Part shown: positions 1,177 through 17,737 of the stretch, piece after piece
Position numbering within the stretch: the first letter of the stretch is position 1
How the letters are laid out: each line of letters begins with the position of its first letter
From: Rhodospirillaceae bacterium
Lineage (GTDB): Bacteria; Pseudomonadota; Alphaproteobacteria; Dongiales; Dongiaceae
Length of the DNA stretch: 64,000 nt
Assembly: GCA_008012315.1 (NCBI GenBank)
Contig: SSEL01000009.1
Span: 124,001 to 188,000 of the forward strand
Reading direction: 5' to 3'
Position numbers and translations under genes: made by a program
The notes under the pieces: generated by a model
Seen by the model: only the letters and a program-made list of their open reading frames with translations
The model's database searches: none
Told to the model about the DNA's origin: nothing

Positions 1177-1522
1177 CATCGCTTTTGCGGTGACTGGCCC
1201 GTCTGTTCTAAATGCGGGTCAGATAAGCGCTTCGCGCAAAGACCGGCGACGGCGACAGCCCTGTCCCCGACCCGGCGGGTTGAAGTTCAATTGGCTTGAA
1301 CCCGCCCTGGAAGGTGATAGAGTACGGCTTGCTGCACCACAGCAAATCGTTGGCTGTCGCTGTCGCCCGCTTTCTTGGAGCGCATTTGATGTCGGTTCCG
1401 GGGCGTTTTTCTGACGTTCCTTCCTTTTTTGTGCTCTTTAAGCTTTTTAGCTGGGCTTTTCAGCGCCCCATGCGATATGCATGCGGGTGCAATTTGCACT
1501 GCAACATTCACGGTAGCCGGGC
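1177..1522 (+). other. Non-coding gap upstream of sucC
   Basis: These 346 bases hold no convincing gene. An imperfect stem-loop is visible with GGCGGGTT (1274-1281) against AACCCGCC (1299-1306); it lacks a T-run and may be a leader structure or a weak terminator. A 13-base palindrome, GTGCAATTTGCAC (1487-1499), lies 24 bases before sucC and could be an operator. The sucC promoter is presumably here, but I cannot place it confidently. Confidence 0.4.
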
Positions 1523-2689
1523 ATGAATATTCACGAGTATCAGGCCAAGGCCCTCCTTGGCAGATTCGGTGTCGCCGTTCCCCAGGGTCATGTGGCCTAT
1601 ACGCCTGAGGAAGCGGTCGACGCAGCGCGCAAGCTTGGCGGATCGGTCTGGGTGGTCAAAGCCCAGATTCACGCCGGCGGACGCGGCAAGGCGGGTGGCG
1701 TCAAAGTCGTCAAATCGATCGATGAGGTGCGCGACGCCGCGCAGAAAATGCTCGGCATGACGCTGGTGACGCACCAGACCGGCCCGCAGGGCCGCCTAGT
1801 GAAGCGCATCTATGTCGAAAGCGGCTGCGACATCAAGCGCGAGCTCTATCTCGGCATGCTGGTGGACCGGGCGACATCGCGGATCACCATCATGGCCTCG
1901 TCGGAAGGCGGCGTGGAGATCGAAGAGGTCGCTGCGACTCATCCGGAAAAGATCATCAAGATCGCCGTCGATCCGGCAACCGGCATCCAGCCCTTCCATG
2001 CCCGTGAAGTTGCTTTCGGCCTCGGCCTCGAAGGCAATCAGATCGGCTCCTGCGTGAAGTTCGTCACCGCGATGTATCGCGCCTTCACCGAGCTCGATTG
2101 CTCGATCGTCGAAATCAATCCGCTGGTGGTGACCGGCGCCGGCGATGTGCTGGCGCTCGATGCCAAGGTGAATTTCGACGACAACGCGCTCTTCCGTCAC
2201 AAGGATGTCGAAGAACTGCGCGATGCCGATGAGGAAGATCCGGCCGAGCTGGAAGCGGCGAAGCACAGTCTCAACTACATCAAGCTCGACGGCAATATCG
2301 GCTGCATGGTGAATGGCGCCGGTCTTGCCATGGCGACGATGGATATCATCAAGCTCTATGGCGGCGCACCGGCGAATTTCCTCGATGTCGGTGGCGGCGC
2401 CACCAAGGAACGCGTCACCACGGCTTTCAAGATCATTCTCAGCGACGCCAATGTCGAAGGGATTCTGGTTAACATCTTCGGCGGCATCATGCGCTGCGAT
2501 GTGATTGCCGAGGGTGTCGTCGCCGCTGCGCGCGAGGTCAGCCTGCACGTGCCGCTGGTGGTGCGCCTCGAAGGCACCAATGTCGATCTGGGTAAGAAGA
2601 TTCTGGCGCAATCCGGCTTGCCGATCCTGTCGGCCGACAATCTGGCCGATGCGGCGGAAAAAGTCGTCAAAGCCGTGAAGGAGGCGTGA
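1523..2689 (+). CDS. sucC: Succinyl-CoA synthetase (ADP-forming) beta subunit
   Basis: SucC pairs with SucD to convert succinyl-CoA, ADP or GDP and phosphate into succinate, CoA and ATP or GTP in the TCA cycle. The 388-residue product is full length for the family. It opens with [20 protein letters not shown], the canonical start of the ATP-grasp domain, and carries [12 protein letters not shown] in the nucleotide-binding region and [10 protein letters not shown] near the C-terminus, which belongs to the CoA-ligase-like domain. The ribosome site is weak. sucD starts 4 bases downstream, so the two are co-transcribed and probably translationally linked. Confidence 0.97.
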
Positions 2690-2693
2690 GGTA

Positions 2694-3569
2694 ATGGCCG
2701 TTCTCGTCAATAAGGACACGAAGGTCATCTGCCAGGGCTTCACCGGTTCGCAAGGTACCTTCCATTCCGAACAAGCAATCGCCTATGGCACCCGCATGGT
2801 TGGCGGCGTCACGCCCGGCAAGGGCGGCACCAAGCATCTGGACCTGCCGGTCTTCGATACGGTCGCCGCGGCCGTTTCCAAGACGGGCGCCAATGCCAGC
2901 GTCATCTATGTGCCGCCGCCCTTCGCGGCCGATGCCATCCTCGAAGCCAGCGAAGCCGGCATCGAGCTGGTGGTTTGCATCACCGAAGGCATCCCGGTGC
3001 TCGACATGGTGCGGGTCAAGCGCGGCCTGTCCGGTTCCAAGACCCGCCTGATCGGCCCGAACTGCCCCGGCATCATCACGCCGGGCGAATGCAAGATCGG
3101 CATCATGCCGGGCCATATCCACAGTCGCGGCAAGATCGGCATCGTCTCGCGCTCCGGCACGCTCACTTATGAAGCGGTGGCGCAGACCACGGCGGCCGGC
3201 CTCGGCCAGACGACCTGCATCGGCATCGGCGGCGATCCGGTCAACGGCACCAATTTCGTCGACTGCCTGGAGCTGTTCCTGGCGGATGACGAAACCCAGG
3301 GCATCGTGATGATCGGCGAAATCGGCGGCAATGCCGAGGAAGACGCCGCCGCCTTCCTGAAGGCGGCAAAGAAGAAAAAGCCGGTGGTCGGCTTCATCGC
3401 CGGCGTCACCGCGCCACCGGGCCGCCGCATGGGCCATGCCGGTGCAATCATCTCCGGCGGCAAGGGCGGTGCCGGCGACAAGATCGAAGCCATGCGCTCG
3501 GCCGGGATCCTGGTGGCGGATTCGCCCGCCAGCCTGGGCAGTACCATGGTCAAGGCAATGGGCAAGTAA
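2694..3569 (+). CDS. sucD: Succinyl-CoA synthetase alpha subunit
   Basis: This is the CoA-binding and phospho-histidine subunit of succinyl-CoA synthetase. The 291 residues include the N-terminal CoA-binding Rossmann fold ([18 protein letters not shown]), GPNCPGII, and [15 protein letters not shown], whose His is the residue phosphorylated during catalysis. The start is the first ATG after sucC, 4 bases past its stop. A 238-base gap separates it from sucA, so sucCD and sucA-sucB-lpd may be separate transcripts. Confidence 0.97.
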
Positions 3570-3807
3570 ACCGGTGCGCCGCGGAAAATTGCCACCCGCT
3601 TATCATGAACGGGGACAGATTTCTGCGGCGTCATACCGGAAGGACGGTTATAAAACGCGGGATGCCGCCGGTCGGGTGCGGCTTCCTGCAGGTAGCTTCG
3701 ATAGCCCCGATGTCCTTTTCGGACGGTGGTTGCCGAGCGCCGGTTTGCCAGGGGTTCTATACGGGCCGCCGCCCGATCGCGGCCTTGGCTGCAGTGAGTG
3801 ATCGAGC

Positions 3808-6666
3808 ATGGATCAGACCAGTTTCCTTTCCGGCCCCAACGCCCCTTTCATCGAAGAACTCTACGCCAAATATCTGGAGAACGCCGCATCGGTCGATCCC
3901 AGCTGGCGCAGCTTTTTCGATGATTTGCGGGACGACGCCACCACCGTCCTGCAGGATATCCGCGGCGCCAGCTGGTCGCCGCGCGAGCGCGCGGTCGAAA
4001 TCGGCGACGGATATGAAGAGGATGGCGCGGCCGAGGATGTCGCCCGGCCGCGGGCGACATTGCGCGATCGCAAGAAAGCCGCCCTCGACAGCTTGCGGGC
4101 GATGATGCTGATCCGCGCCTATCGTGTGCGCGGCCATCTCGAAGCCAATCTCGATCCGCTGGAATTGAAGCCGCGCGGCAAGCATGCGGAACTCGATCCG
4201 CGCACCTATGGCTTCACCGAAGCCGACATGGATCGCGAAATCGTCATCGACAATGCCTTCGGTTACGAGAGCGCCACCCTGCGCCAGATCGTGCATGCGG
4301 TGCGGCAGACCTATTGCGGGTCGATCGGCATCGAATACATGCATATCGAGAATCCCGACCAGAAGAAGTGGCTGCAGATGCGGGTCGAAGGCAGTCGGGC
4401 GCAGCGCGACTTCACCGGTCGCGGCAAGCGCGCCATCCTTGCGCGCCTGACCGCGGCGGAGATGTTCGAGCGCTTCCTCGACAAGAAGTTCACCGGCACC
4501 AAGCGCTTCGGCCTCGATGGCGGCGAAACCACGATCGCGGCGCTGGAACAGGTGATCAAGCGCGGCAGCCAGCTTGGCCTCAAGGAAGTCGTGATCGGCA
4601 TGGCCCATCGCGGCCGCCTGAACGTACTGGCCAATTTCATGAACAAGCCGTTCTCGGCGATCTTCTCGGAATTCCAGGGCAATTCCGCCAATCCGGAAGA
4701 CGTGCAGGGCTCGGCCGACGTCAAATACCATCTCGGCACCTCGGCCGACCGCGAATTCGACGGCCATGTGGTGCATCTCTCGCTGAACGCCAATCCGTCG
4801 CATCTGGAAGCGGTCAATACCGTGGTGCTCGGCAAGGTGCGCGCCAAGCAGCGGCAGCGCGGCGACAAGAACCGCGAGCAGGTCATGGGGCTTCTGATCC
4901 ACGGCGACGCGGCCTTTGCCGGCCAGGGCTTGGTGCCGGAATCGCTCGATCTTTCCGAGTTGAACGGCTATCGGACCGGCGGCACGATCCACTTCATCAT
5001 CAACAACCAGATCGGCTTCACCACCAATCCGGTGGCGTCGCGGTCGGGGCCCTATTGCTCGGACATCGCCAAGGGCGTGCAGGCGCCGATCCTGCATGTC
5101 AATGCCGACGATCCCGAAGCGGTACTGTTCTGCGCCGGCCTTGCCATGGAGTTCCGCCAGGAATTCAAGCGTGACGTCGTCATCGACATGTTCTGCTATC
5201 GCCGCTATGGCCACAATGAAAGCGACGAGCCGGCTTTCACCCAGCCGCTGATGTACCGCAAGATCGCCAACCATCCGACCACCCGGGCGATCTATGCCGA
5301 CAAGCTGGTGCAGGAAGGTGTGCTGAGCCAGGCCGATGTCGATCAGGTCCTGCAGGATTTCCAGCATCACCTGGAGACGGAATTCGAAGGCTCGGCCAAT
5401 TACAAGCCGAACAAGGCCGACTGGCTGGAAGGCGCCTGGGCCGGGCTCGCCATCGCCTCGGGCGATGAGCGCCGCGGCGAAACCTCGATCATGCCCGATG
5501 GTTTGCAGGAGGTCGGCAAGGCGCTGACCACCGTGCCGGCGACCTTCAATGCCAACCGCAAGATCGCCCGCCAGCTCGCCCAGAAGGAAGAGATGTTCAA
5601 GAGCGGCGAGGGGATCGACTGGGCGACCGGCGAAGCCCTGGCTTTCGGCACGCTGCTGAATGAGGGCGTCTATGTCCGCCTCTCTGGCCAGGACTGCAAG
5701 CGCGGCACCTTCTCGCAGCGCCATGCCGTCCTGATCGACCAGGAAAACGAAGCCGAATACACGCCGCTCAACAATATCCGCCCGGGGCAGGCGCATTTCG
5801 AGGTGATCGACAGCCCGCTTTCGGAAGCCGGCGTGCTCGGCTTCGAATACGGCTTCTCGCTGGCGGAGCCGCGCGCTTTGGTGCTGTGGGAAGCGCAATT
5901 CGGCGATTTCGCCAATGGCGCCCAGGTGATCATCGACCAGTTCATTTCCTCGGGCGAAGCCAAGTGGCTGCGCATGTCCGGCCTGGTCATGCTCCTGCCC
6001 CATGGTTACGAGGGCCAGGGACCGGAACACAGCTCGGCCCGTCTCGAGCGCTATCTGCAGGCCTGCGCCGAAGACAATATGCAGGTCGTCAATGCGACCA
6101 CGCCGGCCAATTATTTCCATGTGCTGCGCCGCCAGGTGCACCGGAATTTCCGCAAGCCGCTGATCATGATGACGCCGAAATCGCTGCTGCGTCACAAGCT
6201 CTGTGTCTCGAAGCTCTCGGAATTCGGCCCGGGCACCAGCTTCCATCGCGTGCTGTGGGACGATGCGCCGCTGCAGGACAAGGACATCAAGCGCGTGGTG
6301 CTGTGTTCCGGCAAGGTCTATTACGATCTCTTCGAGGAACGCGAAAAGCGCGGCATCAAGAATATTTATCTGCTGCGCGTCGAGCAGCTCTATCCCTTCC
6401 CGGCGAAGTCGCTGGCGGCCGAATTGAAGCGCTTCCCCAAGGCGGAAGTCGTCTGGTGCCAGGAAGAGCCGAAGAATATGGGCGCCTGGACCTTCGTGAT
6501 GCCGGAAATCGAAGCCGTCATGGAAACCAACGGCCATCGCCAGCCGCGCCTGATCTATGCCGGCCGGCCGGCCGCGGCAGCGCCGGCGACCGGTCTGTTC
6601 CGACGCCATGTGAAAGAACAAGCGACACTGATCGACCAGGCCCTGGGCGTAACCAGCCGGGCCTGA
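3808..6666 (+). CDS. sucA: 2-oxoglutarate dehydrogenase E1 component
   Basis: SucA is the thiamine-diphosphate-dependent E1 of the 2-oxoglutarate dehydrogenase complex. It decarboxylates 2-oxoglutarate and transfers the succinyl group to the lipoyl arms of SucB. The 952-residue length fits the family. The N-terminus (FLSGPNAPFIEELYAKYL) is the E2-interacting segment. MAHRGRLNVLANFMNKP is the conserved His region, and GDAAFAGQG followed by NNQIGFTTNP is the ThDP/Mg-binding motif. The C-terminal transketolase-like domain includes GFEYGFSLAEPRALVLWEAQ. The 238 bases upstream hold no gene and probably include its promoter. An 8-bp perfect stem-loop separates it from sucB. Confidence 0.97.
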   Translation: MDQTSFLSGPNAPFIEELYAKYLENAASVDPSWRSFFDDLRDDATTVLQDIRGASWSPRERAVEIGDGYEEDGAAEDVARPRATLRDRKKAALDSLRAMMLIRAYRVRGHLEANLDPLELKPRGKHAELDPRTYGFTEADMDREIVIDNAFGYESATLRQIVHAVRQTYCGSIGIEYMHIENPDQKKWLQMRVEGSRAQRDFTGRGKRAILARLTAAEMFERFLDKKFTGTKRFGLDGGETTIAALEQVIKRGSQLGLKEVVIGMAHRGRLNVLANFMNKPFSAIFSEFQGNSANPEDVQGSADVKYHLGTSADREFDGHVVHLSLNANPSHLEAVNTVVLGKVRAKQRQRGDKNREQVMGLLIHGDAAFAGQGLVPESLDLSELNGYRTGGTIHFIINNQIGFTTNPVASRSGPYCSDIAKGVQAPILHVNADDPEAVLFCAGLAMEFRQEFKRDVVIDMFCYRRYGHNESDEPAFTQPLMYRKIANHPTTRAIYADKLVQEGVLSQADVDQVLQDFQHHLETEFEGSANYKPNKADWLEGAWAGLAIASGDERRGETSIMPDGLQEVGKALTTVPATFNANRKIARQLAQKEEMFKSGEGIDWATGEALAFGTLLNEGVYVRLSGQDCKRGTFSQRHAVLIDQENEAEYTPLNNIRPGQAHFEVIDSPLSEAGVLGFEYGFSLAEPRALVLWEAQFGDFANGAQVIIDQFISSGEAKWLRMSGLVMLLPHGYEGQGPEHSSARLERYLQACAEDNMQVVNATTPANYFHVLRRQVHRNFRKPLIMMTPKSLLRHKLCVSKLSEFGPGTSFHRVLWDDAPLQDKDIKRVVLCSGKVYYDLFEEREKRGIKNIYLLRVEQLYPFPAKSLAAELKRFPKAEVVWCQEEPKNMGAWTFVMPEIEAVMETNGHRQPRLIYAGRPAAAAPATGLFRRHVKEQATLIDQALGVTSRA

Positions 6667-6711
6667 TCGATCGAGCTGAAACCGCCGGTCTCGGCCGGCA
6701 TCCATCGAAGC

Positions 6712-6731
6712 GCGCATGCCGGAGCATGCGC
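6712..6731 (+). other. Intercistronic stem-loop between sucA and sucB
   Basis: GCGCATGC (6712-6719) pairs perfectly with GCATGCGC (6724-6731) across a CGGA loop. It has no T-run, so it is more likely an mRNA stability or processing element than a terminator. Confidence 0.45.
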
Positions 6732-6752
6732 CGAGGCTGACGAGGTGAAATG

Positions 6753-8375
6753 ATGGCCACGCCTATTGTCGTTCCGGCTCTTGGGGAATCGGTGACGGAA
6801 GCGACGGTTGCGAAGTGGATGAAGCAGGTCGGCGACCAGGTGAAGGTCGACGAAGCGCTGCTGGAACTGGAAACGGACAAGGTGACGCTGGAGGTCTTCG
6901 CGACCGCCAATGGCACCCTGGGTGAAATTGCCGCCCCGGCCGGCGCGACCGTGGCGGTCGGCGCCGTGCTGGGCCAGATCACCGATGGCGCAATTGCCGG
7001 CGGCGAAATTGTCAGCGGCGCCAATGGTGGCGGCGCAACGCCCAAGGCCGCGGCGACAGCCGCCAAAGCAGCCGCCGTGCCGGCGAAAGCATCTGCGGCA
7101 CCGGCTGCCAGTTCGGCAGGCTCGGCGACGCCAATCACCGTTCCGGCCCTCGGCGAATCGGTGACGGAAGCCACCGTGGCCAAATGGAGCAAGAAAGTCG
7201 GCGATGCGGTCAAGGCCGACGAAGCCCTGCTGGAACTGGAGACCGATAAGGTCACGCTTGAAGTTTTCGCGCCCACCAGCGGCACGCTGGGCGAGATCGT
7301 GGCGCCGCAAGGGTCGACCGTCGCGGTCGGTGCGGTTCTCGGCCGGATCACCGATGGCGCCGTCGTCAGCACCAATGGCAGTGGTGCTGCTGCTGCGGCG
7401 GCGCCGGCGGCAACATCGGCACCGGCCGCCAAGGCTGATGATCTCGCGCCGGCGGTCCGCAAGCTGGTCGCTGAAAACAATCTCGATCCGGCGAAGATCA
7501 ACGGAACCGGCAAGGACGGCCGCCTGCTGAAGGAAGATGTCCTGGCTTATCTCGAAAAGCAGAAGAGCGCTCCGGCGGCCCAGCCGGCAGCCCCGGCACA
7601 GCCGGCACCGGTCGCGCGTCCGGCGACGCCGCCGCAGCCGGCAGTCGAACTGCCGCATGTGCCGCGGGCTTTGGGGCCGAATGAAGAACGCGTGCCGATG
7701 TCGCGCCTGCGCCGCCGCATCGCCGAGCGCCTGAAGCAGGCGCAGAACAATGCCGCCATGCTGACCACCTTCAACGAGGTGGATATGGGCGCGGTGATGG
7801 CGTTGCGCGAAAAATACAAGGACGGCTTCGAGAAGCGCCACAAGGTGAAGCTCGGTTTCATGGGCTTCTTCGTGCGCGCCGCCATCCAGGCCTTGAAGGA
7901 AGTGCCGGCGGTCAATGCCGAGATCGACGGCCCGGACATCATCTATAAGAACCATTACGATGTCGGTGTCGCGGTCGGCACCGAGCAGGGCCTGGTCGTG
8001 CCGGTGGTGCGCGATGCCGACAAGATGAGCCTTGCCGAGATCGAACAGCGTATCGCCGAGCTCGGCCGCCGCGCCCGCGACGGCAAGCTCTCGATTGAGG
8101 AGCTGACCGGCGGCACCTTCACCATCTCCAATGGCGGTGTCTATGGCTCGCTGATGTCGACGCCGATCCTCAACCCACCACAATCCGGCATCCTCGGCAT
8201 GCATAAGATCCAGCAGCGGCCCATGGTGGTCGACGGCAAGATCGAGGCGCGGCCGATGATGTATCTGGCGCTCAGCTACGATCACCGCATCATCGACGGC
8301 CGCGAGGCCGTGACCTTCCTGGTGCGTCTGAAGGATTGCCTGGAAGATCCGCAGCGCCTGATCCTGGAGATCTGA
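6753..8375 (+). CDS. sucB: 2-oxoglutarate dehydrogenase E2 (dihydrolipoyl succinyltransferase) with two lipoyl domains
   Basis: SucB is the core of the 2-oxoglutarate dehydrogenase complex. Domains in order are a first lipoyl domain (about 1-78, lipoyl Lys43 in ETDKVTLEV), an Ala-rich linker, a second lipoyl domain (about 124-201, Lys166 in the same motif), another linker, an E1/E3-binding domain ([20 protein letters not shown]), an Ala/Pro linker and the acyltransferase domain ending with DHRIIDG. About 540 residues is longer than the roughly 400 of one-lipoyl SucB because of the extra domain. The two lipoyl domains are nearly identical around the lysine, so the duplication is recent or homogenised. 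I chose the second of two adjacent ATGs (6753) because GAGG lies 7 bases upstream; 6750 is the alternative. Confidence 0.95.
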
Positions 8376-8385
8376 GGGGGAGCTC

Positions 8386-9114
8386 ATGCCGGCTCGTCGT
8401 AAAGCGGCGGCGAAACCGCGCGCAGCCAGGAAGGTCGCGCGCAAACCGGCGGCCCGCAAGGTCGGTATCGCCGCCAAGCCGCGCCCGGTCGCCTATTACA
8501 ACCAGTCCACCGGCTTCACCTGCGGGCCGTCCTCGCTGATGATGGCGATGAACGCGCTCGATTCGAAAGTGAAGATCGCCCGGACGCTGGAACTGCAATT
8601 GTGGCGCGAGGCGACCACCATCTTCATGGGGGCCGGCCATGGCGGCAGCGGCGCGCTGGGCTTAGCGCTGGCGGCCAGGCGGCGCGGCTTTTCGGCCGAA
8701 GTCTGGATGAACAAAGGCGGGGTGTTCCTCTCCGACCGTCTCGATGACAAGGATCGCGTCCAGGTGATGCGCTTGCTGCAGCAGGCCGATCTTGAAGAAG
8801 CGAAGCGCCTGCGCATCCCGGTTCATCGCGGCAATCCCTCGATTGCAGAACTGAAGCAGGCGATGGCGGCGGGTGCCATTCCCATTGTGCTGGTTTCGAC
8901 CAATCTGTTCCATGGCGATGATACGCCGCATTGGGTGGTGGTCAGCGCGATCGGCGACGATGAAATACGGGTGAACGATCCCTGGATCTCGCGCGAATTG
9001 GGGCAGACGGCGCGGCAGCAGACCGGCCGTGCGGTTTCCCATGCCGATTTCAAGCGCATGACGGTCTATGGGCCGAAGAAGGAACGGTCGACCGTCCTGA
9101 TCCGGCGCGGCTGA
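8386..9114 (+). CDS. Peptidase C39-like (papain-fold) protein with basic N-terminal tail
   Basis: The 242-residue protein has a Lys/Arg/Ala/Pro tail (about residues 1-34) followed by a domain resembling C39-like or DUF3335-type cysteine peptidases. Candidate catalytic residues are Cys46 in GFTCGPSSL, His182 in DTPHWVVVSAIG and Asp198 in RVNDPW, the order of a papain-type triad. There is no signal peptide or ABC module, so it should be cytoplasmic and is not a bacteriocin exporter. It starts 10 bases after sucB behind GAGGGGGAG and is followed by lpd, so it is part of the operon. Its substrate is unknown. Maturation or turnover of a complex component is a possibility, not shown. Confidence 0.7.
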   Translation: MPARRKAAAKPRAARKVARKPAARKVGIAAKPRPVAYYNQSTGFTCGPSSLMMAMNALDSKVKIARTLELQLWREATTIFMGAGHGGSGALGLALAARRRGFSAEVWMNKGGVFLSDRLDDKDRVQVMRLLQQADLEEAKRLRIPVHRGNPSIAELKQAMAAGAIPIVLVSTNLFHGDDTPHWVVVSAIGDDEIRVNDPWISRELGQTARQQTGRAVSHADFKRMTVYGPKKERSTVLIRRG

Positions 9115-9161
9115 GGCCGCCCGGTGCGACGGCCGGGAACAGATTGAAGAAGGAGCCGATG

Positions 9162-10565
9162 ATGGCGGAAGACAGTTTCGACGTGGTGGTGATCGGTGGC
9201 GGGCCGGGCGGTTATGTCTGCGCCATCAAGGCGGCACAGCTCGGCCTCAAGACCGCTTGCATCGAGAAGCGCGGCGCGCTTGGCGGCACCTGCCTTAATG
9301 TCGGCTGCATTCCCTCGAAGGCTCTGCTGACCTCATCGCATAAATATGCCGAGGCGGCGCATGACTTTGCAGCCCATGGCATCAAGGTCGGTAAGCTTGA
9401 CCTCGATTTGAAAACGATGATGGATCGCAAGAACAAGGTGGTTGGCGATCTCACCAAAGGCGTCGAGTTCCTCTTCAAGAAGAATAAGGTCACCTATCTG
9501 AAGGGGACCGGCAAGCTGCTGGGTGGCGGCAAGATCGAGGTCAGCGGGGAGAAGGCCCAGGCCGTTTCGGCCAAGAGCATCATCATCGCTACCGGTTCCG
9601 ATGTGACGCCGCTGCCCGGTGTCGCCATCGATGAAAAGCAGATCGTTTCCTCGACCGGCGCCTTGTCCCTGGAGAAAGTGCCGGAGCACCTAGTCGTCAT
9701 TGGCGGCGGGGTGATCGGCCTGGAGATGGGTTCGGTCTGGCTGCGCCTCGGCGCCAAGGTAACGGTGGTCGAATTCCTCGACCGGATCGTGCCGAGCATC
9801 GATACTGAAGTCAGCACCCAGTTCCAGCGCGTCCTGACCAAACAGGGCATGACCTTCAAGCTCGGCACCAAGGTGACCTCAGCGAAGAGTGCCAAAGGCA
9901 AGGTAACGCTCAGCCTGGAACCGGCCAAGGGCGGCGCCAAGGAAGAACTGGTGGCCGATGCGGTGCTGGTGGCGATCGGCCGCAAGCCCTATACCGAAGG
10001 CCTCGGCCTCGACACCGCCGGCGTGGCACTGGATGAGAAAGGCCGCATCAAGACCGATCATCACTTCCAGACCAATGTGCCCGGTATCTATGCGATCGGC
10101 GACGTCATCGCCGGCCCGATGCTGGCCCATAAGGCGGAAGAGGAAGGTGTGGCCATCGCCGAAATGCTGGCCGGCCAGGCCGGCCATGTGAATTACGAGA
10201 CGGTGCCGAATATCGTCTACACTTGGCCGGAACTGGCGAGTGTCGGCAAGAGCGAGGACGAATTGAAGGCGGCCGGTGTCGACTACAAGATCGGCAAGTT
10301 CCCCTTCCTGGCGAATTCCCGCGCCAAGGCCAATGCCGATACCGACGGCCTCGTCAAGCTCATCGCCGATGCCAAGACTGACCGCCTGCTTGGCGCCCAT
10401 GTGCTGGGGCCGGATGCCGGCACGCTTATTCATGAATGCGTCATGGCGATGGAATTCCACGCCTCGGCAGAAGATGTCGCCCGCGCCTTCCATGGCCACC
10501 CGACTTTCAATGAAGCTATCAAGGAAGCGGCTCTGGCGATTTTCAGCAAGGCCATTCATATCTGA
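9162..10565 (+). CDS. lpd: Dihydrolipoamide dehydrogenase (E3)
   Basis: This flavoprotein reoxidises the lipoyl groups of SucB with NAD+. It has the N-terminal FAD-binding motif VVVIGGGPGGYVCA, the redox disulfide Cys44/Cys49 in GGTCLNVGCIPSK, the NAD-binding motif VIGGGVIGLEMG, and the C-terminal interface HAHPTxNE-type segment (AFHGHPTFNEAI) carrying the catalytic His-Glu pair. I chose the ATG at 9162 because AAGGAG ends 6 bases before it. ATG 9159 is only 3 bases from that site, and an in-frame TTG at 9144 has no ribosome site. The gene ends the sucA-sucB operon and is followed by a stem-loop. Confidence 0.96.
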   Translation: MAEDSFDVVVIGGGPGGYVCAIKAAQLGLKTACIEKRGALGGTCLNVGCIPSKALLTSSHKYAEAAHDFAAHGIKVGKLDLDLKTMMDRKNKVVGDLTKGVEFLFKKNKVTYLKGTGKLLGGGKIEVSGEKAQAVSAKSIIIATGSDVTPLPGVAIDEKQIVSSTGALSLEKVPEHLVVIGGGVIGLEMGSVWLRLGAKVTVVEFLDRIVPSIDTEVSTQFQRVLTKQGMTFKLGTKVTSAKSAKGKVTLSLEPAKGGAKEELVADAVLVAIGRKPYTEGLGLDTAGVALDEKGRIKTDHHFQTNVPGIYAIGDVIAGPMLAHKAEEEGVAIAEMLAGQAGHVNYETVPNIVYTWPELASVGKSEDELKAAGVDYKIGKFPFLANSRAKANADTDGLVKLIADAKTDRLLGAHVLGPDAGTLIHECVMAMEFHASAEDVARAFHGHPTFNEAIKEAALAIFSKAIHI

Positions 10566-10576
10566 TTGCGTCACGC

Positions 10577-10602
10577 GATTGCCTGATTTGCGTCAGGCAA
10601 TC
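10577..10602. terminator. Stem-loop between convergent lpd and pip
   Basis: GATTGCCTGA (10577-10586) and TCAGGCAATC (10593-10602) form a perfect 10-bp stem with a TTTGCG loop. It lies just past lpd and overlaps the pip stop codon. There is no clear T-run on either side, so termination is inferred from position between convergent genes. Confidence 0.6.
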
Positions 10603-11569
10603 AGCTGCGTTGTGGCTGCGCGAAGCGATCCGTGGCGGCAATGATGGCATCTTCCATACCCGGATCGCTCACCGAATGGCCGGCTGGTGAAATGATCACA
10701 AGTTCTGCGTCGCGCCAGACCCTGGCCAATTGCCAGGCCGTCACCAGCGGCGCGCCGAGATCGAGACGTCCCTGAATCAGGATGCCTGGAATACCGGCCA
10801 GGCGGCTTGCCTCTTTCAGCAGAATTCCTTCTTCCAGCCAAGCGGCATGGCGAAAGTAATGCGTCACGATGCGGGCCCGCGCGAGCCGGAACTGCGGGTC
10901 CGACCAGCTCGCTGGCGGTTTCGCACGAGGATCGATGGACAGCGAGGCGGCCTCCCAGTCGTGCCAGTCCCGGGCGGCCTTGGCTCGAATAGCAGGATCG
11001 GCATCATTGAGCAGGCGATGATAGGCGGTCACCAGATCGTCCGCTCGCTCGCTTGCTGGCACACCGTCTTGAAAGTGTTCCCATTCTTCCGGGTAAAGTG
11101 GCGCGATACCGCGATAGAGCCAGTCGATCTCGCTCCGGCGTGTCGTCGTCACACCGGCAAGAATGAGGGCTCTTACTTGGACGGGAAGTTGTTCCGCGTA
11201 AGCAAGGGCCAAAGTGCTGCCCCAGGAAACGCCAAATACCAACCAGCGATCGACCTTCAGATGATGGCGCAGGCATAGGATGTCCCGCACCAAGTGATGC
11301 GTGGTGTTGCACGACAGATCGGTCTCGGGTTCGCCCGCATGTGGCAGGCTGCGACCGCAACCACGTTGATCGAAGAGGATAATCCGATAGGCCGTCGGAT
11401 CGAAGAAACGCCGCGCCGTGTCGGTGCAGCCGGAACCTGGTCCGCCATGCAGATAGAGGACCGGATGGCCATCCGGATTGCCGCAAGTCTCCCAATAGAT
11501 TTGCTGATCGTCACCAACCGCGAGAAAGCCGGAATCGTAGGGGGCGATTGGCGGATATAGCTTTGGCAT
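10601..11569 (-). CDS. pip: Proline iminopeptidase (S33 alpha/beta hydrolase)
   Basis: Pip removes N-terminal proline from peptides in the cytoplasm. The 322-residue product has YLHGGPGSGC (oxyanion region typical of S33), FDQRGCGRS, the nucleophile Ser in FGVSWGSTLAL, an acid in IQGRLDLGAP and His in SPAGHSVSDP. The start MPKLYPPIAPYDSG is typical of the family. The ribosome site GGTGAG lies 3 bases before the ATG and is buried in a perfect 8-bp hairpin, which suggests control of translation. The gene is convergent with lpd and upstream transcription would come from the betC direction. Confidence 0.92.
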   Translation of the reverse strand: MPKLYPPIAPYDSGFLAVGDDQQIYWETCGNPDGHPVLYLHGGPGSGCTDTARRFFDPTAYRIILFDQRGCGRSLPHAGEPETDLSCNTTHHLVRDILCLRHHLKVDRWLVFGVSWGSTLALAYAEQLPVQVRALILAGVTTTRRSEIDWLYRGIAPLYPEEWEHFQDGVPASERADDLVTAYHRLLNDADPAIRAKAARDWHDWEAASLSIDPRAKPPASWSDPQFRLARARIVTHYFRHAAWLEEGILLKEASRLAGIPGILIQGRLDLGAPLVTAWQLARVWRDAELVIISPAGHSVSDPGMEDAIIAATDRFAQPQRS

Positions 11570-11572
11570 TAA

Positions 11573-11598
11573 CTCACCATCGGCATGCAGATGGTGAG
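11573..11598 (-). promoter_or_regulatory. Hairpin sequestering the pip ribosome-binding site
   Basis: On the minus-strand mRNA, CTCACCAT pairs perfectly with ATGGTGAG across a 10-base loop. The 3' arm contains the GGTGAG ribosome site of pip, and the ATG follows 3 bases later. The same arm also holds a mini open frame, ATG GTG AGT TAA, whose stop overlaps the pip start as TAATG. Translational control (RNA thermometer, coupling or protein binding) is inferred. Confidence 0.5.
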
Positions 11599-11639
11599 CT
11601 AATCGTGAAAGGCCGGCTGCAGCCAGCCTATAGAACGAC

Positions 11640-11666
11640 AGTCGCCGGCAGCCTCAGCCGGCGACT
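11640..11666 (-). terminator. Stem-loop downstream of betC
   Basis: AGTCGCCGGC (11640-11649) and GCCGGCGACT (11657-11666) make a perfect 10-bp GC-rich stem with a 7-base loop, 17 bases beyond the betC stop. Only a weak T-rich stretch follows on the minus strand. A terminator is the likely role. Confidence 0.6.
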
Positions 11667-11682
11667 GCCTTCCGTGATTTGC

Positions 11683-13221
11683 TTACTCCGCCGCCTTTGG
11701 CATCTCCACATGGGGCAGGCGCGAGCGATATTCGAGATCGTCCAGTACCAGATGGTTGCGCATATAGCTGGTGCTGGCATCGCGCAGCGGCTGATGGTCC
11801 CAACTCGTATGCTTGCCCTGCGACAGCGCCTGATAGACCAGGCGGCGGCGCTGCTGGCTGGCGAGAACCTGTGCATGGAGCGCCGGGACATCCCAGCGCT
11901 GGGCCGCTTCGGCGCGGAAGTCGCTCAGGATCCTGGTATGGGCGGGATCGGCGGCGAGATTGGTTTTCTCCAGCGGATCGGCGGACAGGTCGAACAACTG
12001 ATCCGGATCGGGTGTCGAGCAGACATATTTCCATTGGCCGCGCCGGATCATCAGCACGGGTGCAATGGCACCTTCGCCGCAATATTCGCCGATCACTTCG
12101 TCATGGCCGCCGCTCCGGTTGAGATGCGGCAGCAGCGACCGGCCGTCGATCGGGGCGGCCGGCGCGAACTTGCCGCCATCGGCGGCAATCTCCGCCAGGG
12201 TTGGCAGCAGATCGATCGATGAGGTCGCGGCACTGACACGGCCGCTCTGGAACATGCCGGGGGCCGAGACGATCAGCGGGATGCGGCAGGAATCCTGGAA
12301 CCAGCTCATCTTGTACCAGAGGCCGCGCTCGCCCAGCATATCGCCGTGATCGGCGGTGAAAACGACGATGGTGTTCTGATCGAGGCCGGTTTCCTTCAGC
12401 GCCTGCATCAGGATGCCGACCTGGCTGTCGATATAGGTGATATTGGCGAAATAGGCATGACGGGCGCGGCGCACATGCTCGTCGTGGATCACATAGGCCT
12501 CCATGTCGGAGACATGGCGCAGCCGCGCCGAATGCGGATCGAGCGGCACATCCTCGCGCCGCACCAGCGGCAGGGGGATGTCGTCCTCACGGTAGCGCGC
12601 CATCAGTTCCGGCTGGGCGGCATAGGGGTCGTGCGGATGGGTCCAGGAGACGGTCAGGCAGAAGGGCCGTTCATCGGCGCTGCGCGCCATGTCGTAGAGA
12701 TGGCGGCGCGCCGTATAGGTAACCTCGTCATCGAAATCGAGCTGGTTCGACCGCACGGCGGGCCCCGCCTGCAGGACCGAGAGCATGTTATGATACCAGC
12801 TCGGCCGCACATCGAAATGTTCCCAATCGGGGGTCCAACCGTAATCAGCGGGATAGATGTCGGTGGTCAGCCGTTCCTCGAAGCCATGCAACTGGTCGGG
12901 GCCGCAGAAATGCATCTTGCCGGTCAAGGTGGTGCGATAACCGGCGGCACGGAGATAATGGGCGAAGGTCGGGACGTCGCTGCTGAAATCCGCGGCATTG
13001 TCGAAGGCGCCGATCCGCTTCGGCAGGGCGCCGGCCATCATGGTGAAGCGCGACGGCGCACAAAGCGGGGCATTGGTGTAGAAGCTGTCGAAGGTGACGC
13101 CCTTCTCGGCGAGCGCCGAGAGATGCGGCGCCTGCACCACCTTATGGCCATAGGCCGGCAGATAACTGGCGGCGAGCTGGTCCGCCATGAGGAAAAGAAT
13201 GTTCGGTTTGCGTGTTGCCAT
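11683..13221 (-). CDS. betC: Choline-sulfatase
   Basis: BetC hydrolyses choline-O-sulfate to choline and sulfate, feeding glycine betaine synthesis or carbon and sulfur use. The 512-residue product has NILFLMADQLAASYLPAYG at the N-terminus (metal-binding Asp), the sulfatase signature LCAPSRF whose Cys becomes formylglycine, TGKMHFCGPDQLHGFE, and FTADHGDMLGERG (metal-binding Asp-His). MSWFQDSCRIPLIV is typical of BetC. I placed the start at 13221 (MATRKPNIL) because GGGAGAA lies 9 bases upstream; a longer frame to 13305 has a low-complexity head and no ribosome site. The adjacent divergent LysR regulator supports the substrate call. No betABI genes lie in the window. Confidence 0.93.
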   Translation of the reverse strand: MATRKPNILFLMADQLAASYLPAYGHKVVQAPHLSALAEKGVTFDSFYTNAPLCAPSRFTMMAGALPKRIGAFDNAADFSSDVPTFAHYLRAAGYRTTLTGKMHFCGPDQLHGFEERLTTDIYPADYGWTPDWEHFDVRPSWYHNMLSVLQAGPAVRSNQLDFDDEVTYTARRHLYDMARSADERPFCLTVSWTHPHDPYAAQPELMARYREDDIPLPLVRREDVPLDPHSARLRHVSDMEAYVIHDEHVRRARHAYFANITYIDSQVGILMQALKETGLDQNTIVVFTADHGDMLGERGLWYKMSWFQDSCRIPLIVSAPGMFQSGRVSAATSSIDLLPTLAEIAADGGKFAPAAPIDGRSLLPHLNRSGGHDEVIGEYCGEGAIAPVLMIRRGQWKYVCSTPDPDQLFDLSADPLEKTNLAADPAHTRILSDFRAEAAQRWDVPALHAQVLASQQRRRLVYQALSQGKHTSWDHQPLRDASTSYMRNHLVLDDLEYRSRLPHVEMPKAAE

Positions 13222-13354
13222 GATGGCGGCTTCTCCCAACTGATCCGGCCCTCGGCCCCGCTTATATCCGCGATTTGGGGGCGCTTTACCGGTTTCCTGC
13301 GACAAAGCCTTAATTTATGCTGGAAAGCATCGGTCCGGAACGCGGCCAAGCGAT

Positions 13355-14302
13355 ATGAGTGATATAAGTAAAACAAATATCCCAGGTGGCCTGCCGCCCT
13401 TGGCCGCTTTGCCGGCTTTCGAGGCGGCGGCCCGTTTCGGCAGCTTCAGCAAGGCGGCCCAGCATCTCGGCACCTCGCAACCGGCCATCAGCCAGCAGAT
13501 CCGGCAACTGGAAGCGGCACTGGGCCAGAAACTGTTCCAGCGGCGCTCGCAAGGTGTCGCGCTGACCTCCGCGGGGGAGGAGCTCCGGCAGGCGGTGGAA
13601 ACCGGCTTCCAAGCCTTGCGCCAGGTGACGCAAGCACTGCGGCAGCCGGTGACTCGCGCCGAAATCACCGTCGCGACCGATTTCGCTTTCGCGGCCTATT
13701 GGCTGTTGCCGCGCCTGGAGCGCTTCAAGGCGGTGATGCCGGCGGTCGATGTGCGGATCCTGACGGCCCAGCATGTCCACGACCTGGGGAGCGCCAGCGC
13801 GGATATCGCGATTCTGTTCGGCAAGGCCCCGGCCGCTGGCCGCCGCAATCGCGGCAAGCTTCTTTTCGCGGAAAAGGTTTATCCGGTCTGCGCGCCGACT
13901 TATGGCTGCGGGCCGTTGCGCGGCAAGCCCGACTGGATGGCCGAGGCGGTCCTGCTGCATCTCGACGACATGCCGGCGCCGTCCTCGCCGGACCGCCGCA
14001 GCGAGCGCTGGTTCACCTGGGCCGATTGGCTGCGGGAAGCGCAGTGCGATGAAAAACTGCGCGGCCGGCAACTGCGCTTCAACAATTACACATTGGTGCT
14101 GCAGGCGGCGATCGCCGGCCAGGGACTCGCCTTGGGCTGGGCGCCTTTGGTGGAGCCACTCATCGCGGCGGGGCAACTGCGCCGCGCCCATCATCATGTC
14201 AGCCAATCGCCGCGCGGCTATTTTCTCTCCCGCACCGACCAGCAGAATCCATCGACCGATGCCTTCATCGACTGGCTGCAGCGGGAAGCGGCGGCGCGCT
14301 AG
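13355..14302 (+). CDS. LysR-family regulator of choline-sulfate use
   Basis: The 315-residue product is a standard LysR activator. A winged helix-turn-helix lies at about residues 20-80 (GSFSKAAQHLGTSQPAISQQ, then RQLEAALGQKLFQRR), followed by a periplasmic-binding-fold effector domain. It is transcribed divergently from betC with about 130 bases between the starts, the usual arrangement for a LysR gene and its target, and matches the choline-sulfate regulator type linked to betC. Choline or choline sulfate is the likely inducer by analogy. Its TAG stop lies inside the outer arm of the palindromic repeat at 14299-14435. Confidence 0.85.
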   Translation: MSDISKTNIPGGLPPLAALPAFEAAARFGSFSKAAQHLGTSQPAISQQIRQLEAALGQKLFQRRSQGVALTSAGEELRQAVETGFQALRQVTQALRQPVTRAEITVATDFAFAAYWLLPRLERFKAVMPAVDVRILTAQHVHDLGSASADIAILFGKAPAAGRRNRGKLLFAEKVYPVCAPTYGCGPLRGKPDWMAEAVLLHLDDMPAPSSPDRRSERWFTWADWLREAQCDEKLRGRQLRFNNYTLVLQAAIAGQGLALGWAPLVEPLIAAGQLRRAHHHVSQSPRGYFLSRTDQQNPSTDAFIDWLQREAAAR

Positions 14303-14435
14303 AGCGCGATCGTCTTTGATGGCTGCCTTATGCTTCCATCAAAGACGTGAATCGCCCTCTATCTTATGGATGAGAGGCGGATTCACGTTTTAGACAAATC
14401 GCCAAGCGATTCCGTCTAAAACGATCCGGCTCTAG
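14299..14435. repeat. Composite palindromic repeat, copy 1
   Basis: An outer imperfect inverted repeat (CTAGAGC at 14299 against GCTCTAG ending at 14435, with GATCG/CGATC inside) encloses three hairpins. They are CGTCTTTGATGG (14311-14322) with CCATCAAAGACG (14336-14347), GTGAATC..CCCTCT (14347-14360) with AGAGG..GATTCAC (14373-14386), and GTTTTAGAC (14387-14395) with GTCTAAAAC (14414-14422) around an AATCG/CGATT apex. The segment from about 14351 to 14434 matches the copy at 57151-57237. The outer arms contain the stop codons of both flanking convergent genes. Confidence 0.75.
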
Positions 14436-14917
14436 TCACGGCTGAGTGGCAGGGTCATCCAGTCGAGTTCCTCGATCATCTCGCCGCCGATCCGGTGATA
14501 GAAATCATAGGCCAGGTGATTGGGCTTGAAGACCGACCAGATCAGCCGCGTGGCGCCGCGCCGGCGGGCGAGATCGCCGGCGGCCTGCATCAACCCCTTG
14601 CCGACACCGTGGCGGCGGCCGGCCGGCTCCACCCAAAGGTCGATCACCATCAGCTCGCGACAGGCAAGGTCGCTATTGTAACTGGGACAATGCAGCAGAT
14701 AGCCGACCGCCTCGTCGTTCAACACCGCCAGGAAACCGCCGAAAGCCGGATCCGGCCCAAAGCCATCTTGCAGATAGCGCGCGCGGTTGAATTGATAGTC
14801 GTCGGTATCGCCGAGCGCTTCCAGGTAGTGCCGGAAGTTCAGCGACATGGCGCAGACGGCATCGGCATCGGCCGCCGTGATCGGCCTGATATGAAGTTGT
14901 GTCGGCTTCTCCGACAT
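14432..14917 (-). CDS. GNAT-family N-acetyltransferase
   Basis: The 161-residue product has the GNAT fold. It begins with LHIRPITAADADAVCAM, has the beta-4 strand ELMVIDLWVEP, and carries the acetyl-CoA pyrophosphate loop GRRHGVGKGLMQAAG (Q/RxxGxG/A type). WSVFKPNHLAYDFYHRIGGE near the end is the usual C-terminal GNAT segment. The substrate cannot be told from sequence. I chose ATG 14917 (MSEKPTQL) because AGGGAG lies 6 bases upstream; the frame stays open to 15010. Its TAG stop lies in the right outer arm of the palindromic repeat. Confidence 0.85.
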   Translation of the reverse strand: MSEKPTQLHIRPITAADADAVCAMSLNFRHYLEALGDTDDYQFNRARYLQDGFGPDPAFGGFLAVLNDEAVGYLLHCPSYNSDLACRELMVIDLWVEPAGRRHGVGKGLMQAAGDLARRRGATRLIWSVFKPNHLAYDFYHRIGGEMIEELDWMTLPLSRD

Positions 14918-14991
14918 TTCATGCTCCCTGACAGTGTCTTTCATTGGGGATAGGATCGTCCCCACGATAATTTGCGCCTGATATTCTGCAA

Positions 14992-15990
14992 ATGGCGGCA
15001 GCTTTGTCATTCATGAAACGACCTACGATGTGGGGGCTTGCAATCGGCATCGCCCTTCTGGTCGCCGTCTTTGCGCAGCATGATCCCGGCGCGATCTTCG
15101 CTGCGGTCATCGGCATCGGCTGGGGTGCCTTCGCCATCCTTCCCTGGCGCATCGCTTCGATCTTCAGCAGTGCGGCAGGTTGGGCCTGCCTCTATCGCCG
15201 CGCCGAACGATTGCCTTACTTGCATCTGGTGCAGGGACGCTGGATCAGCGAGGCCGTCAATCACCTGCTCCCCATGGCGCAGATCGGCGGCAATGTGGTC
15301 CGTGGCCGGCTGGCCTATCGGGCAGCGCGATCGCGTCGACCCGGCCTCACCGGCACTGCCGTCGCGGCGATCCTGATTGTCGATATCACTGGCGCCTTGG
15401 CGGCACGGGTGATTCTGGTAGCGGCCGGCTTCCTGCTGCTATGGCAACGGCAGATACTTGGTTTCGCCGGAGCGATGCTCGGCATCGGACTGTCCGTGGT
15501 GCCGCTACTTTTCCTGCTGGCGATCCAGCACCGCCGCCTGCTGTCGGGCGCGGCAGGGTTGTTGCACCGGCCGAAATGGCATCGGCTGCTGCAAGCGGTC
15601 GAGGCCACGGCACAGGATCTGGCAACGCATCTCGTCGCACTCTATCGCCGATGGGTCGCGATGACGCTGGACATCGCCTGGCATGTGATCGCCGGGCTTT
15701 TCCGGGTCGGCGAGACCTGGACGATCCTGCTGCTGCTCGGCCACCCGGTTTCCATTGTCGAGGCGCTGCTGATCGAGGTGATGGCCAGCACGGTGCGCGC
15801 ACTGGCTTTCCTCATTCCCGGCGGGCTCGGCGCCCAGGAAGGCGGCTTTCTGTTGATCTGCCATCTGCTTGGCGTCGCCCCGATCCTGGCCCTGGCCCTG
15901 GCGGTGACGAAGCGGGCGCGCGATGCGGCTTTGGGCCTGCCGGCTTTGCTGGATTGGCTGATTCTGGAACGCCGGATTCGAACTGGCTAG
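14992..15990 (+). CDS. UPF0104/HpnL-type polytopic membrane protein (LPG synthase TM-like)
   Basis: The 332-residue product is very hydrophobic, with about 7-8 predicted membrane segments, for example MWGLAIGIALLVAVFA and residues around ILIVDITGALAARVIL. Conserved polar blocks SEAVNHLLPMAQIGGNVVRG and LAFLIPGGLGAQEGGFL match the membrane domain shared by lysylphosphatidylglycerol synthases and UPF0104/HpnL proteins. No soluble aminoacyl-transferase domain is present. A role in lipid or hopanoid handling is inferred from the family only. Its stop overlaps the xerC stop by 4 bases. ATG 15013 is an alternative start. Confidence 0.75.
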   Translation: MAAALSFMKRPTMWGLAIGIALLVAVFAQHDPGAIFAAVIGIGWGAFAILPWRIASIFSSAAGWACLYRRAERLPYLHLVQGRWISEAVNHLLPMAQIGGNVVRGRLAYRAARSRRPGLTGTAVAAILIVDITGALAARVILVAAGFLLLWQRQILGFAGAMLGIGLSVVPLLFLLAIQHRRLLSGAAGLLHRPKWHRLLQAVEATAQDLATHLVALYRRWVAMTLDIAWHVIAGLFRVGETWTILLLLGHPVSIVEALLIEVMASTVRALAFLIPGGLGAQEGGFLLICHLLGVAPILALALAVTKRARDAALGLPALLDWLILERRIRTG

Positions 15991-16973
15991 CTTTTCGCGC
16001 GTGGATGCGCGGCGTTGTAAACCGCCATCAATTGCGCCGCATCCACCTCGGTATAACGCTGCGTGGTGGAGAGCGAGGCATGGCCGAGCAATTCCTGGAT
16101 CGCGCGCAGATCGCCGCCGCCGGCCAGCAAATGGGTGGCAAAGGAATGCCGCAAGGCATGCGGCGTGGCGGTTTCCGGCAGGCCGAGTGCGGCGCGCAAA
16201 TGCTGCATCGCCCGTTGGATCAGCCGTGGATTGAGCACATCGCCGCGCGCGCCGACAAAAAGCGGATCGCCCGCGCCGCCGCCATAGGGACAGGCGGCGA
16301 GGTAATCGCGAATCGCGTCGCTGACCACCGGCAGGATCGGCACCACGCGCTCCTTGCGGCCCTTGCCGAGGATACGCAGCAAGCCCACACCGTCCTGCGC
16401 CGGCACATCGCCACGGGTGAGGGAGAGCGCTTCGCTGATGCGCAGGCCGCAGCCATAGAGCAGTGTGAGGACGGCGATATCGCGCTTGCCGATCCAGCTT
16501 TCATGTTGCTGGTCGCCGATGGCGGAGACAGCTTCCATCGCTTCCGGAGCGGTCAAGGGCTTGGGTAGGCTGCGCGGCAATTTGGGCGTGCGCAAGGCGG
16601 TCAGGCTGGTCTGGTCGATCAGGCCGCGCTTGATGGCCAGCCGGTAGAAGCTTTTGACCGCGCTCAAGGCCCGGGCCGTGGAACTGGCCTGCAAGCCGCG
16701 CGTCGACCGCCGGGCCATCCAGGCGCGAAAATCGGCGCGGCCAAGCGCTGCGATCCGGGCGAGATCCGGCTGCGCGCCGAGATGGCCGGTGATGAAGCCG
16801 AGAAAATCGGCGAAGTCGCGGCGATAAGCATCCACCGTCAAATCCGCAGCGCGGCGCTCATCGCCGAGCCAGGCAAGCCAGATGGCAATGGCTTTCTTCA
16901 GGTCGGCCGCGACGTCGAAGCCCGCGGCAGCTTCCTCACCAGAGGGAACGGCGAGGTCCGATTGCCCCGCCAT
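15987..16973 (-). CDS. xerC: Tyrosine site-specific recombinase XerC
   Basis: XerC acts with XerD at dif to resolve chromosome dimers. The 328-residue product has the N-terminal SAM-like core-binding domain (TVDAYRRDFADFLGFI) and the catalytic domain with Arg in CGLRISEALSL, Lys in LGKGRKERVVP, His-x-x-Arg in HALRHSFATHLL, His in LGHASLSTTQRY and the Tyr nucleophile in the same block. The frame extends far upstream only as an out-of-frame shadow of the DUF484 gene. I chose MAGQSDL at 16973; MAGPAASL at 17021 is possible and would overlap DUF484. The DUF484 neighbour supports xerC over xerD. Confidence 0.9.
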   Translation of the reverse strand: MAGQSDLAVPSGEEAAAGFDVAADLKKAIAIWLAWLGDERRAADLTVDAYRRDFADFLGFITGHLGAQPDLARIAALGRADFRAWMARRSTRGLQASSTARALSAVKSFYRLAIKRGLIDQTSLTALRTPKLPRSLPKPLTAPEAMEAVSAIGDQQHESWIGKRDIAVLTLLYGCGLRISEALSLTRGDVPAQDGVGLLRILGKGRKERVVPILPVVSDAIRDYLAACPYGGGAGDPLFVGARGDVLNPRLIQRAMQHLRAALGLPETATPHALRHSFATHLLAGGGDLRAIQELLGHASLSTTQRYTEVDAAQLMAVYNAAHPRAKS

Positions 16974-16996
16974 CTTCCTGTTCGCCGCCTTCTTGT

Positions 16997-17737
16997 TCAA
17001 GGATGCGGCAGGTCCAGCCATGCGCGGATTCCGAATTCGATGATCTTGCCGAGAAAGCCCAGCAATTCGGTTGCCTGGCCGGGATGGAAATAGCCGGGAT
17101 GGCGGGTGCCGAAAGCGACCAGACCATGCGGCGCGGCGGAGCTTATATGCAGGCGCAGCAGCGCATCGGACCGCACCATATCGGCGCAACCGGCGAAGAT
17201 CTCCGGATCGCCGTCGATATCGTCCCGCAGCAGGATATCGCGATTCTTGCCCATGATGCGATCGACCGCGCCGCGTTCCAGGATCAGCACGCCATCCACC
17301 GCCGGCCGGTTGAAGCTGAGATCGGTCATCTCGATGCAAAGATTGACCACATCGACATCCAGCATCAGCACCAGGTCGCCGGTGACGATTTCGATGAACT
17401 GCTCGAAGGTTTCCGCTTCCAGCAGTGCGAGCGATGCCTGATGGATGCGTTCCTGGGTGTTCAGGTTGTCCCGGCTGTTGGCGATGATCTCATCCTGGTC
17501 GGCGCGCAGCCGCGCCACATCGCGGCGCAGCTTTTCCACCATCGCCTGCTGCAGATCGACCACCGTTCCGCCCTGATGGCGCGCGGGCGCATCCTGCAGA
17601 TCCAGCAATTCCGGATGCCGCAGCAGGAAATCGGGATGCCGCCGCAGATAGGCGATGACCTGCGCCGCCGTCGGCAAATTGCCGGCGGCCTTCTTGGTGT
17701 TTTGGCCGCCCGCGGCCGTATCGCCCTTATCTACCAT
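16997..17737 (-). CDS. DUF484 (GAF-like) family protein
   Basis: The 246-residue product has AAQVIAYLRRHPDFLLRHPE, the DUF484 N-terminal signature, a central coiled-coil helix (VEKLRRDVARLRADQDEII) and a C-terminal GAF-like domain ending in PGYFHPGQATELLGFLGKII. The biochemical role of the family is not known; it is repeatedly found directly upstream of xerC, as here. The start ATG at 17737 has an in-frame acidic/Gly-rich lead of about 20 residues. Confidence 0.85.
   Translation of the reverse strand: MVDKGDTAAGGQNTKKAAGNLPTAAQVIAYLRRHPDFLLRHPELLDLQDAPARHQGGTVVDLQQAMVEKLRRDVARLRADQDEIIANSRDNLNTQERIHQASLALLEAETFEQFIEIVTGDLVLMLDVDVVNLCIEMTDLSFNRPAVDGVLILERGAVDRIMGKNRDILLRDDIDGDPEIFAGCADMVRSDALLRLHISSAAPHGLVAFGTRHPGYFHPGQATELLGFLGKIIEFGIRAWLDLPHP

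Follow-up and report, generated by a model that had tools for sequence, protein, structure and literature searches.

The suc operon and its additional gene

The window analysed here – a stretch of DNA of 64,000 nucleotides – carries a suc operon made up of textbook enzymes, all encoded on the plus strand. These are sucC (1523–2689) and sucD (2694–3569), for succinyl-CoA synthetase beta and alpha, both named by translation and the former without a family search; sucA (3808–6666), for E1 of 2-oxoglutarate dehydrogenase (ODH), with matches to PF16078, PF00676, PF02779 and PF16870; sucB (6750–8375), for E2 (PF00364 in two stretches, PF02817 and PF00198); and lpd (9159–10565), for E3, dihydrolipoyl dehydrogenase (PF07992 and PF02852).

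Between sucB and lpd lies a further gene, an open reading frame of 242 amino acids (8386–9114, plus strand) that starts with ATG and encodes a stand-alone papain-fold cysteine enzyme of the DUF3335 family. Its start follows the sucB stop codon after 10 bases, and its own stop precedes the likely lpd start – an ATG at 9159 or 9162 behind the motif GAAGGAG, preferred on sequence grounds to a TTG at 9144 – by 44–47 bases. The DUF3335 gene in the ODH operon is thus a real observation, and the original prediction, made from the sequence alone, was right about the papain fold, the operon position and the tight spacing. A promoter scan of positions 1200–11700 returned one promoter-like site, located on the minus strand inside the DUF3335 gene, with 1.9 such sites expected by chance.

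The window's SucB, a protein of 541 amino acids, has two lipoyl domains according to Pfam. The remaining SucB copies of the order look single-lipoyl: in 14 of 15 the match to the window protein starts at residues 117–129, and in the fifteenth (L064) the alignment is to the first lipoyl domain only.

Elsewhere in the window we find a sulfatase with a choline-sulfatase C-terminal domain (11683–13305, minus strand), adjoined by a LysR-type regulator named by translation (13355–14302, plus strand); a generic GNAT gene (14432–15010, minus strand), homologues of which, in 10 of the 15 other loci of the order, sit close to the suc operon in the opposite orientation; and a tyrosine recombinase (15987–17339, minus strand; PF00589 and PF02899) whose sequence reads as XerC/XerD-like. 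At gathering thresholds, the sole Rfam match across the window is a bacterial small SRP RNA (RF00169; 50050–50149, plus strand, 58.9 bits), far from the suc operon.

Family and predicted fold

The protein encoded at 8386–9114 scores 227.8 bits with PF11814 (DUF3335, Peptidase_C39-like; cut-off 25, E 1.2e-67), and the match, which runs over residues 36–239 and profile positions 2–205/206, covers the full domain. Other families of this fold score far lower: Peptidase_C39 (PF03412) reaches 15.2 bits, below its cut-off of 22, and phytochelatin synthase (PF05023) a weak 13.7 bits, below 24.9, while Peptidase_C39_2 (PF13529), at 28.4 bits, exceeds its cut-off of 24, with its best stretch confined to residues 35–64. 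The sole NCBIfam match, to the PA2778 family cysteine peptidases (NF033920), is far below its cut-off (12.9 against 150). The earlier description of the protein as C39-like is apt for the fold, the family itself being DUF3335.

No GNAT family was matched in this protein by Pfam, and a basic tail of 37 residues is all that precedes the DUF3335 domain. PADLOC gave no defence-system match for the window protein, for one GNAT–DUF3335 fusion or for one RLAN ligase. Among solved structures the only sequence match was to PilN (E 0.77), which we took as chance.

An AlphaFold model, built with the window protein and 20 relatives as input, has a mean pLDDT of 81.6, with residues 3–28 below 50. When the chains that Foldseek ranked highest were compared with the model by VIA-align, the top match was the PeiR endoisopeptidase (Z 16.4–16.5, 2.4 Å over 147 residues, 19–20% identity), followed by an entry titled P210 CD lyase (Z 15.5), the C39 domains of PCAT1 (Z 15.3) and ComA (about 15), and the phytochelatin synthase Alr0975 (Z 14.2–14.9, the highest value being that of the acyl-enzyme form). 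Foldseek's own ranking places phytochelatin synthase first (E 3.5e-5). These comparisons speak for the families represented in the structure list.

Active site and basic tail

The catalytic set proposed in the original prediction is intact. Its members are Cys46, the predicted nucleophile (codon 8521–8523), His182, the predicted base (8929–8931), and Asp198, the predicted third member (8977–8979), all on the plus strand. Across an alignment of 77 rows – 16 from the order, 57 from fusion proteins and four from other stand-alone proteins – the cysteine and the histidine are present in every row. Position 198 is Asp in 16 of 16 rows of the order, Asp in 46 and Glu in 11 of the fusions, and Asp in two, Glu in one and Asn in one of the other stand-alone rows. 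All three residues are likewise invariant in the 21 rows of alignment A1.

Eight positions – G82, H110, L115, D135, H176, N197, W200 and E233 – distinguish the stand-alone proteins of this group from the fusions: at each, one residue is shared by 16 or more of the 18 members of the former and by no more than 11 of the 57 latter; some rows of the order are short at the front, leaving the counts for residues 38 and 40 incomplete. H176, N197 and W200 lie near catalytic residues in sequence, and their predominance in the group fits an altered substrate, a change that we infer for the enzyme of the order.

The basic tail was also rightly noted. It is N-terminal (residues 1–37; 8386–8496, plus strand), contains 13 Lys or Arg residues and neither Asp nor Glu, and is mostly disordered in the model. 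At least eight Lys or Arg residues are found in the tails of 14 of the 16 copies of the order; two genomes (G002 and G005) encode a protein without a basic tail, and both the sequence and the length of the tail vary among copies. Binding of nucleic acid through the tail, which had been suggested, finds no support in this pattern.

Conservation within the order

The sample of the window's order consisted of 17 genomes from one family, distributed over seven genera. A single DUF3335 copy is present in 16 of them, among these all 15 with a completeness of at least 90% and a contamination of at most 5%, and all 16 carriers, from seven genera, have it at the sucB–lpd junction. The complete series sucC–sucD–sucA–sucB–DUF3335–lpd can be read in 14 of the 15 other loci, the fifteenth ending inside sucD. 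The seventeenth genome (G012), in which no DUF3335 match was found, is 68% complete; its best lpd piece comprises residues 358–467 only and halts at the end of a contig of 5898 bases, from which it follows that the sucB–lpd site is absent from its assembly. A homologue of the GNAT gene at 14432–15010 also adjoins this cut lpd. A survey of sucB–lpd loci, as the original prediction proposed, hence gives the opposite of a site that is empty in all relatives.

The spacing is variable but short: judged by the candidate start closest to the DUF3335 domain or by one a little upstream, the position of the gene ranges from an overlap of 40 bases with sucB to a gap of 38 bases, and in one locus (L068) the sucB and DUF3335 matches are about 33 bases apart. 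By a simple Nei–Gojobori method applied to seven congeneric pairs of the order, dN/dS is 0.06–0.35 for DUF3335, against 0.03–0.19 for sucB, 0.05–0.24 for lpd and 0.03–0.07 for sucD. Retention at one site across seven genera, together with dN/dS values that point to purifying selection, argues for more than chance. The protein nevertheless diverges faster than its neighbours, with 46–58% identity to the window copy compared with about 63–80% for the SucB and Lpd matches. The window genes behind lpd (encoding an alpha/beta-hydrolase, a LysR-type and an LPG-synthase-like protein) gave no match above 60 bits in the other 15 stretches of the order.

For the same 16 genomes, the DUF3335 tree shares 10 of 13 splits with a tree of SucA and Lpd combined, and the three discordant splits include values of 99 on the DUF3335 side and 98 on the SucA and Lpd side. 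Vertical inheritance is thereby shown mainly, though not wholly.

Did E1, E2 or E3 acquire matching features? When rows from the order were aligned with rows from outside it, no insertion specific to the order was found in SucA (16 order and 18 outside rows), SucB (15 and 26 rows, with the order row L068 dropped and L145 and L152 lacking a full reading) or Lpd (16 and 16 rows, with the short L139 and L141 dropped). Residues specific to the order and above the thresholds number nine in SucA – one of them a start-methionine artefact – one in SucB and one in Lpd, as raw counts without a shuffle control. We rejected a processing site specific to the order in these three proteins.

DUF3335 outside the order

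A search with the SucB catalytic part matched 52 of 57 genomes of the class, and the best 30 of these 52 loci – two from the order and 28 others – were analysed as the match plus up to 1500 bases per side. DUF3335 was found in none of the 28 stretches from outside the order. In 18 of them lpd lies on the same stretch, the matches being no more than 160 bases apart in 16 cases, 340 in one and 1100 in one; in the remaining 10 it lies outside the stretch.

DUF3335 itself is not confined to the order. In a sample of 385 genomes of the class, 35 carry it, five from the order and 30 from elsewhere, and in 26 of these 30 it forms the C-terminal half of a GNAT–DUF3335 fusion adjoining a gene for an RLAN/RimK-like ATP-grasp ligase. 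The exceptions are G178, G194, G065 and G304, the match in the last being below the cut-off. The RLAN ligase is present in 27 of the 30 carriers; the same search returned it in none of the 17 genomes of the order, with the built-in controls silent and the class search serving as positive control. In G194, a protein of 665 amino acids with two DUF3335 stretches (L081:5728–7722) is accompanied by a separate single-domain copy.

A sample of 398 genomes of the phylum contained 58 with DUF3335, and the frames listed are at least 361 amino acids long, barring two members of the order and one cut by a contig end; such lengths fit GNAT–DUF3335 fusions. In 19 of 19 loci from 18 Thalassospira genomes and one Rhodospirillales MAG (L003–L021), the GNAT–DUF3335 gene faces the RLAN gene, and a GNAT match occurs at the facing RLAN gene in 18, the exception (L021) being cut. 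In the Thalassospira-type loci (L003–L020 and L087), the RLAN ligase gene bears a GNAT domain of its own, as assigned by Pfam for L087, and the two genes stand tail to tail. The available portion of PMC10318531, which cites Iyer et al. 2009, likewise describes frequent fusion of DUF3335 members to GNAT domains. Within the portions of the literature available, our search found neither a substrate assigned to DUF3335 nor anything on a DUF3335 gene in an ODH operon.

The generic GNAT gene at 14432–15010 was considered as the lost half of such a fusion and rejected: against a profile of 45 GNAT domains taken from the class loci it scored 23.1 bits over a partial domain, and in NCBIfam it gave only matches below the cut-off, to assorted acetyltransferases.

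In a quick tree of 77 DUF3335 domains with SH-aLRT values (two further loci yielded no domain), the 16 copies of the order and two stand-alone copies from another family of the class (f35) form one group with a value of 99, beside the fusion lineages. The fork joining the f35 pair to 14 of the 16 copies of the order carries 93 and is unstarred, and the tree program flagged a meeting of long branches where the order and f35 join. Stand-alone DUF3335 occurs in two of 16 f35 genomes, both with an uninterrupted sucA–sucB–lpd series and the DUF3335 gene away from the ODH genes; the link between this enzyme and the ODH operon is hence not universal. In one of them (G178) it directly precedes a creatininase-family gene; both copies have in their neighbourhood an open reading frame that, from its translation, reads as acyl-CoA-synthetase-like.

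Proposed origin and possible role

We propose, with a probability of roughly 0.72, that the gene encodes a competent DUF3335 enzyme, derived from a ligase-associated module, that has become a stable member of the ODH operon throughout the order. The product would be a papain-fold cysteine peptidase or amidase, as its conserved active site suggests. Its ancestors would have been the C-terminal halves of GNAT–DUF3335 fusions encoded beside an RLAN/RimK-like ATP-grasp ligase, where DUF3335 probably did the removal or trimming in a peptide-tagging module – a writer and eraser idea borrowed from RimK and RimB as presented in the accessible text of PMC12239564. Both the descent from the ligase-linked fusion and the direction of change, from fusion to stand-alone protein, are inferred, the latter from the tree, in which the pattern itself is plain. 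At or near the base of the order, one DUF3335 domain would have lost its GNAT half and its ligase, gained a basic flexible N-terminal tail in most lineages and, after a single capture by the ODH operon, become fixed between sucB and lpd.

What the enzyme does there is a more tentative matter. Produced together with E1, E2 and E3, it would most likely target an amide or thioester of the ODH complex – an acyl or peptide moiety carried by E2 or E1, for example – through an acyl-enzyme at Cys46; drawing on the genetic linkage, we favour this reading at somewhat less than even odds. The stronger version, in which the protein is a dedicated accessory of ODH throughout the order, acting on the complex's own amide or thioester chemistry (candidates being lipoyl-lysine or succinyl-lysine amides and S-succinyl-dihydrolipoyl groups on E2) as an eraser that controls flux at a branch point of the tricarboxylic acid (TCA) cycle, we consider doubtful.

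The main rival to action on the complex, which we take seriously without giving it even odds, is a cytoplasmic peptidase or amidase with a substrate unrelated to ODH, inserted once into a strong and rarely rearranged housekeeping operon. It is favoured by the f35 pair, which belongs to the same group yet lies elsewhere in its genomes, by the remainder of the suc operon, which is equally frozen in the order, and by the lack of co-evolved insertions in the alignments of E1, E2 and E3; the linkage to sucB and lpd may then be inherited inertia. Set against this are the retention of one site by 16 of 16 carriers in seven genera, where the gene overlaps sucB or follows it closely, and the contrast with the unmatched genes behind lpd. 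The basic tail, with its eight or more Lys or Arg residues in 14 of 16 copies, could make the protein a nucleic-acid-binding regulator with a histone-like extension, which is very improbable given the two copies that lack a basic tail, the variability of the others and a catalytic domain that is the conserved part of the protein.

The family's usual neighbour, a RimK-like ATP-grasp ligase, raises the alternative that the enzyme erases a peptide or amino-acid tag that some other cellular ligase has attached to ODH, much as RimB strips from RpsF the glutamates that RimK adds, according to the part of PMC12239564 at hand. One genome of the order (G002) does contain an open frame of 320 amino acids that matches RimK over its length with 87.6 bits. 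However, the RLAN ligase is missing from all 17 genomes searched, and the RimK-family matches in genomes other than G002 appear, from frame length and partial coverage, to be mostly glutathione synthetase-like or carbamoyl-phosphate synthase-like, which makes the alternative unlikely. A transpeptidase resembling phytochelatin synthase, which would synthesise or cleave a small thiol peptide (glutathione, for instance) and be expressed with ODH for redox reasons, would agree with the predicted structure's fold match to Alr0975 and with the weak PF05023 score, yet that score falls below the cut-off and VIA-align rates the C39 and PeiR matches at least as highly; we regard it as quite unlikely.

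That an entire order has retained an extra enzyme whose active residues are intact suggests an ODH processing or editing step that had gone unrecognised, and, if the fullest version were true, a cysteine 'eraser' from a peptide-tagging module would set flux at a branch point of the TCA cycle. At the least, the locus gives a way towards finding a substrate for DUF3335, a family with none assigned in the papers found. The enzyme of the order is tractable in this respect, having neither an RLAN ligase nor a fused domain, and few candidate substrates in its operon.

Comparison with known systems

The closest known arrangement is the GNAT–DUF3335/RLAN module, with which the gene of the order shares the catalytic domain, the cysteine, the histidine and, for the most part, the aspartate. 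It differs from the module in having a basic tail instead of the GNAT half, in the other residues found near its active site, in its ODH operon context, and in that no RLAN ligase was found in the 17 genomes of the order.

Among the more distant systems, the C39 domain of PCAT1 and ComA (PF03412) has the same fold (Z about 15) and the same Cys–His–Asp set, whereas the window protein scores below the PF03412 cut-off and has no transporter domain. The pseudomurein endoisopeptidase PeiR is the best fold match to the predicted structure but belongs to a separate sequence family and acts on a cell-wall substrate; for its relatives PeiW and PeiP, the available part of PMC10318531 describes cleavage of an epsilon-isopeptide bond. 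With the phytochelatin synthase Alr0975 (PF05023) the fold is alike, although the sequence score stays below the cut-off. The RimB/RimK pair of Pseudomonas, finally, resembles only the supposed ancestral module, in that a peptidase is paired with a RimK-type ligase (PMC12239564, from the text accessible); RimB is an unrelated, aspartic, retropepsin-like protease rather than a papain-fold enzyme, and no RLAN ligase was found in the genomes of the window's order.
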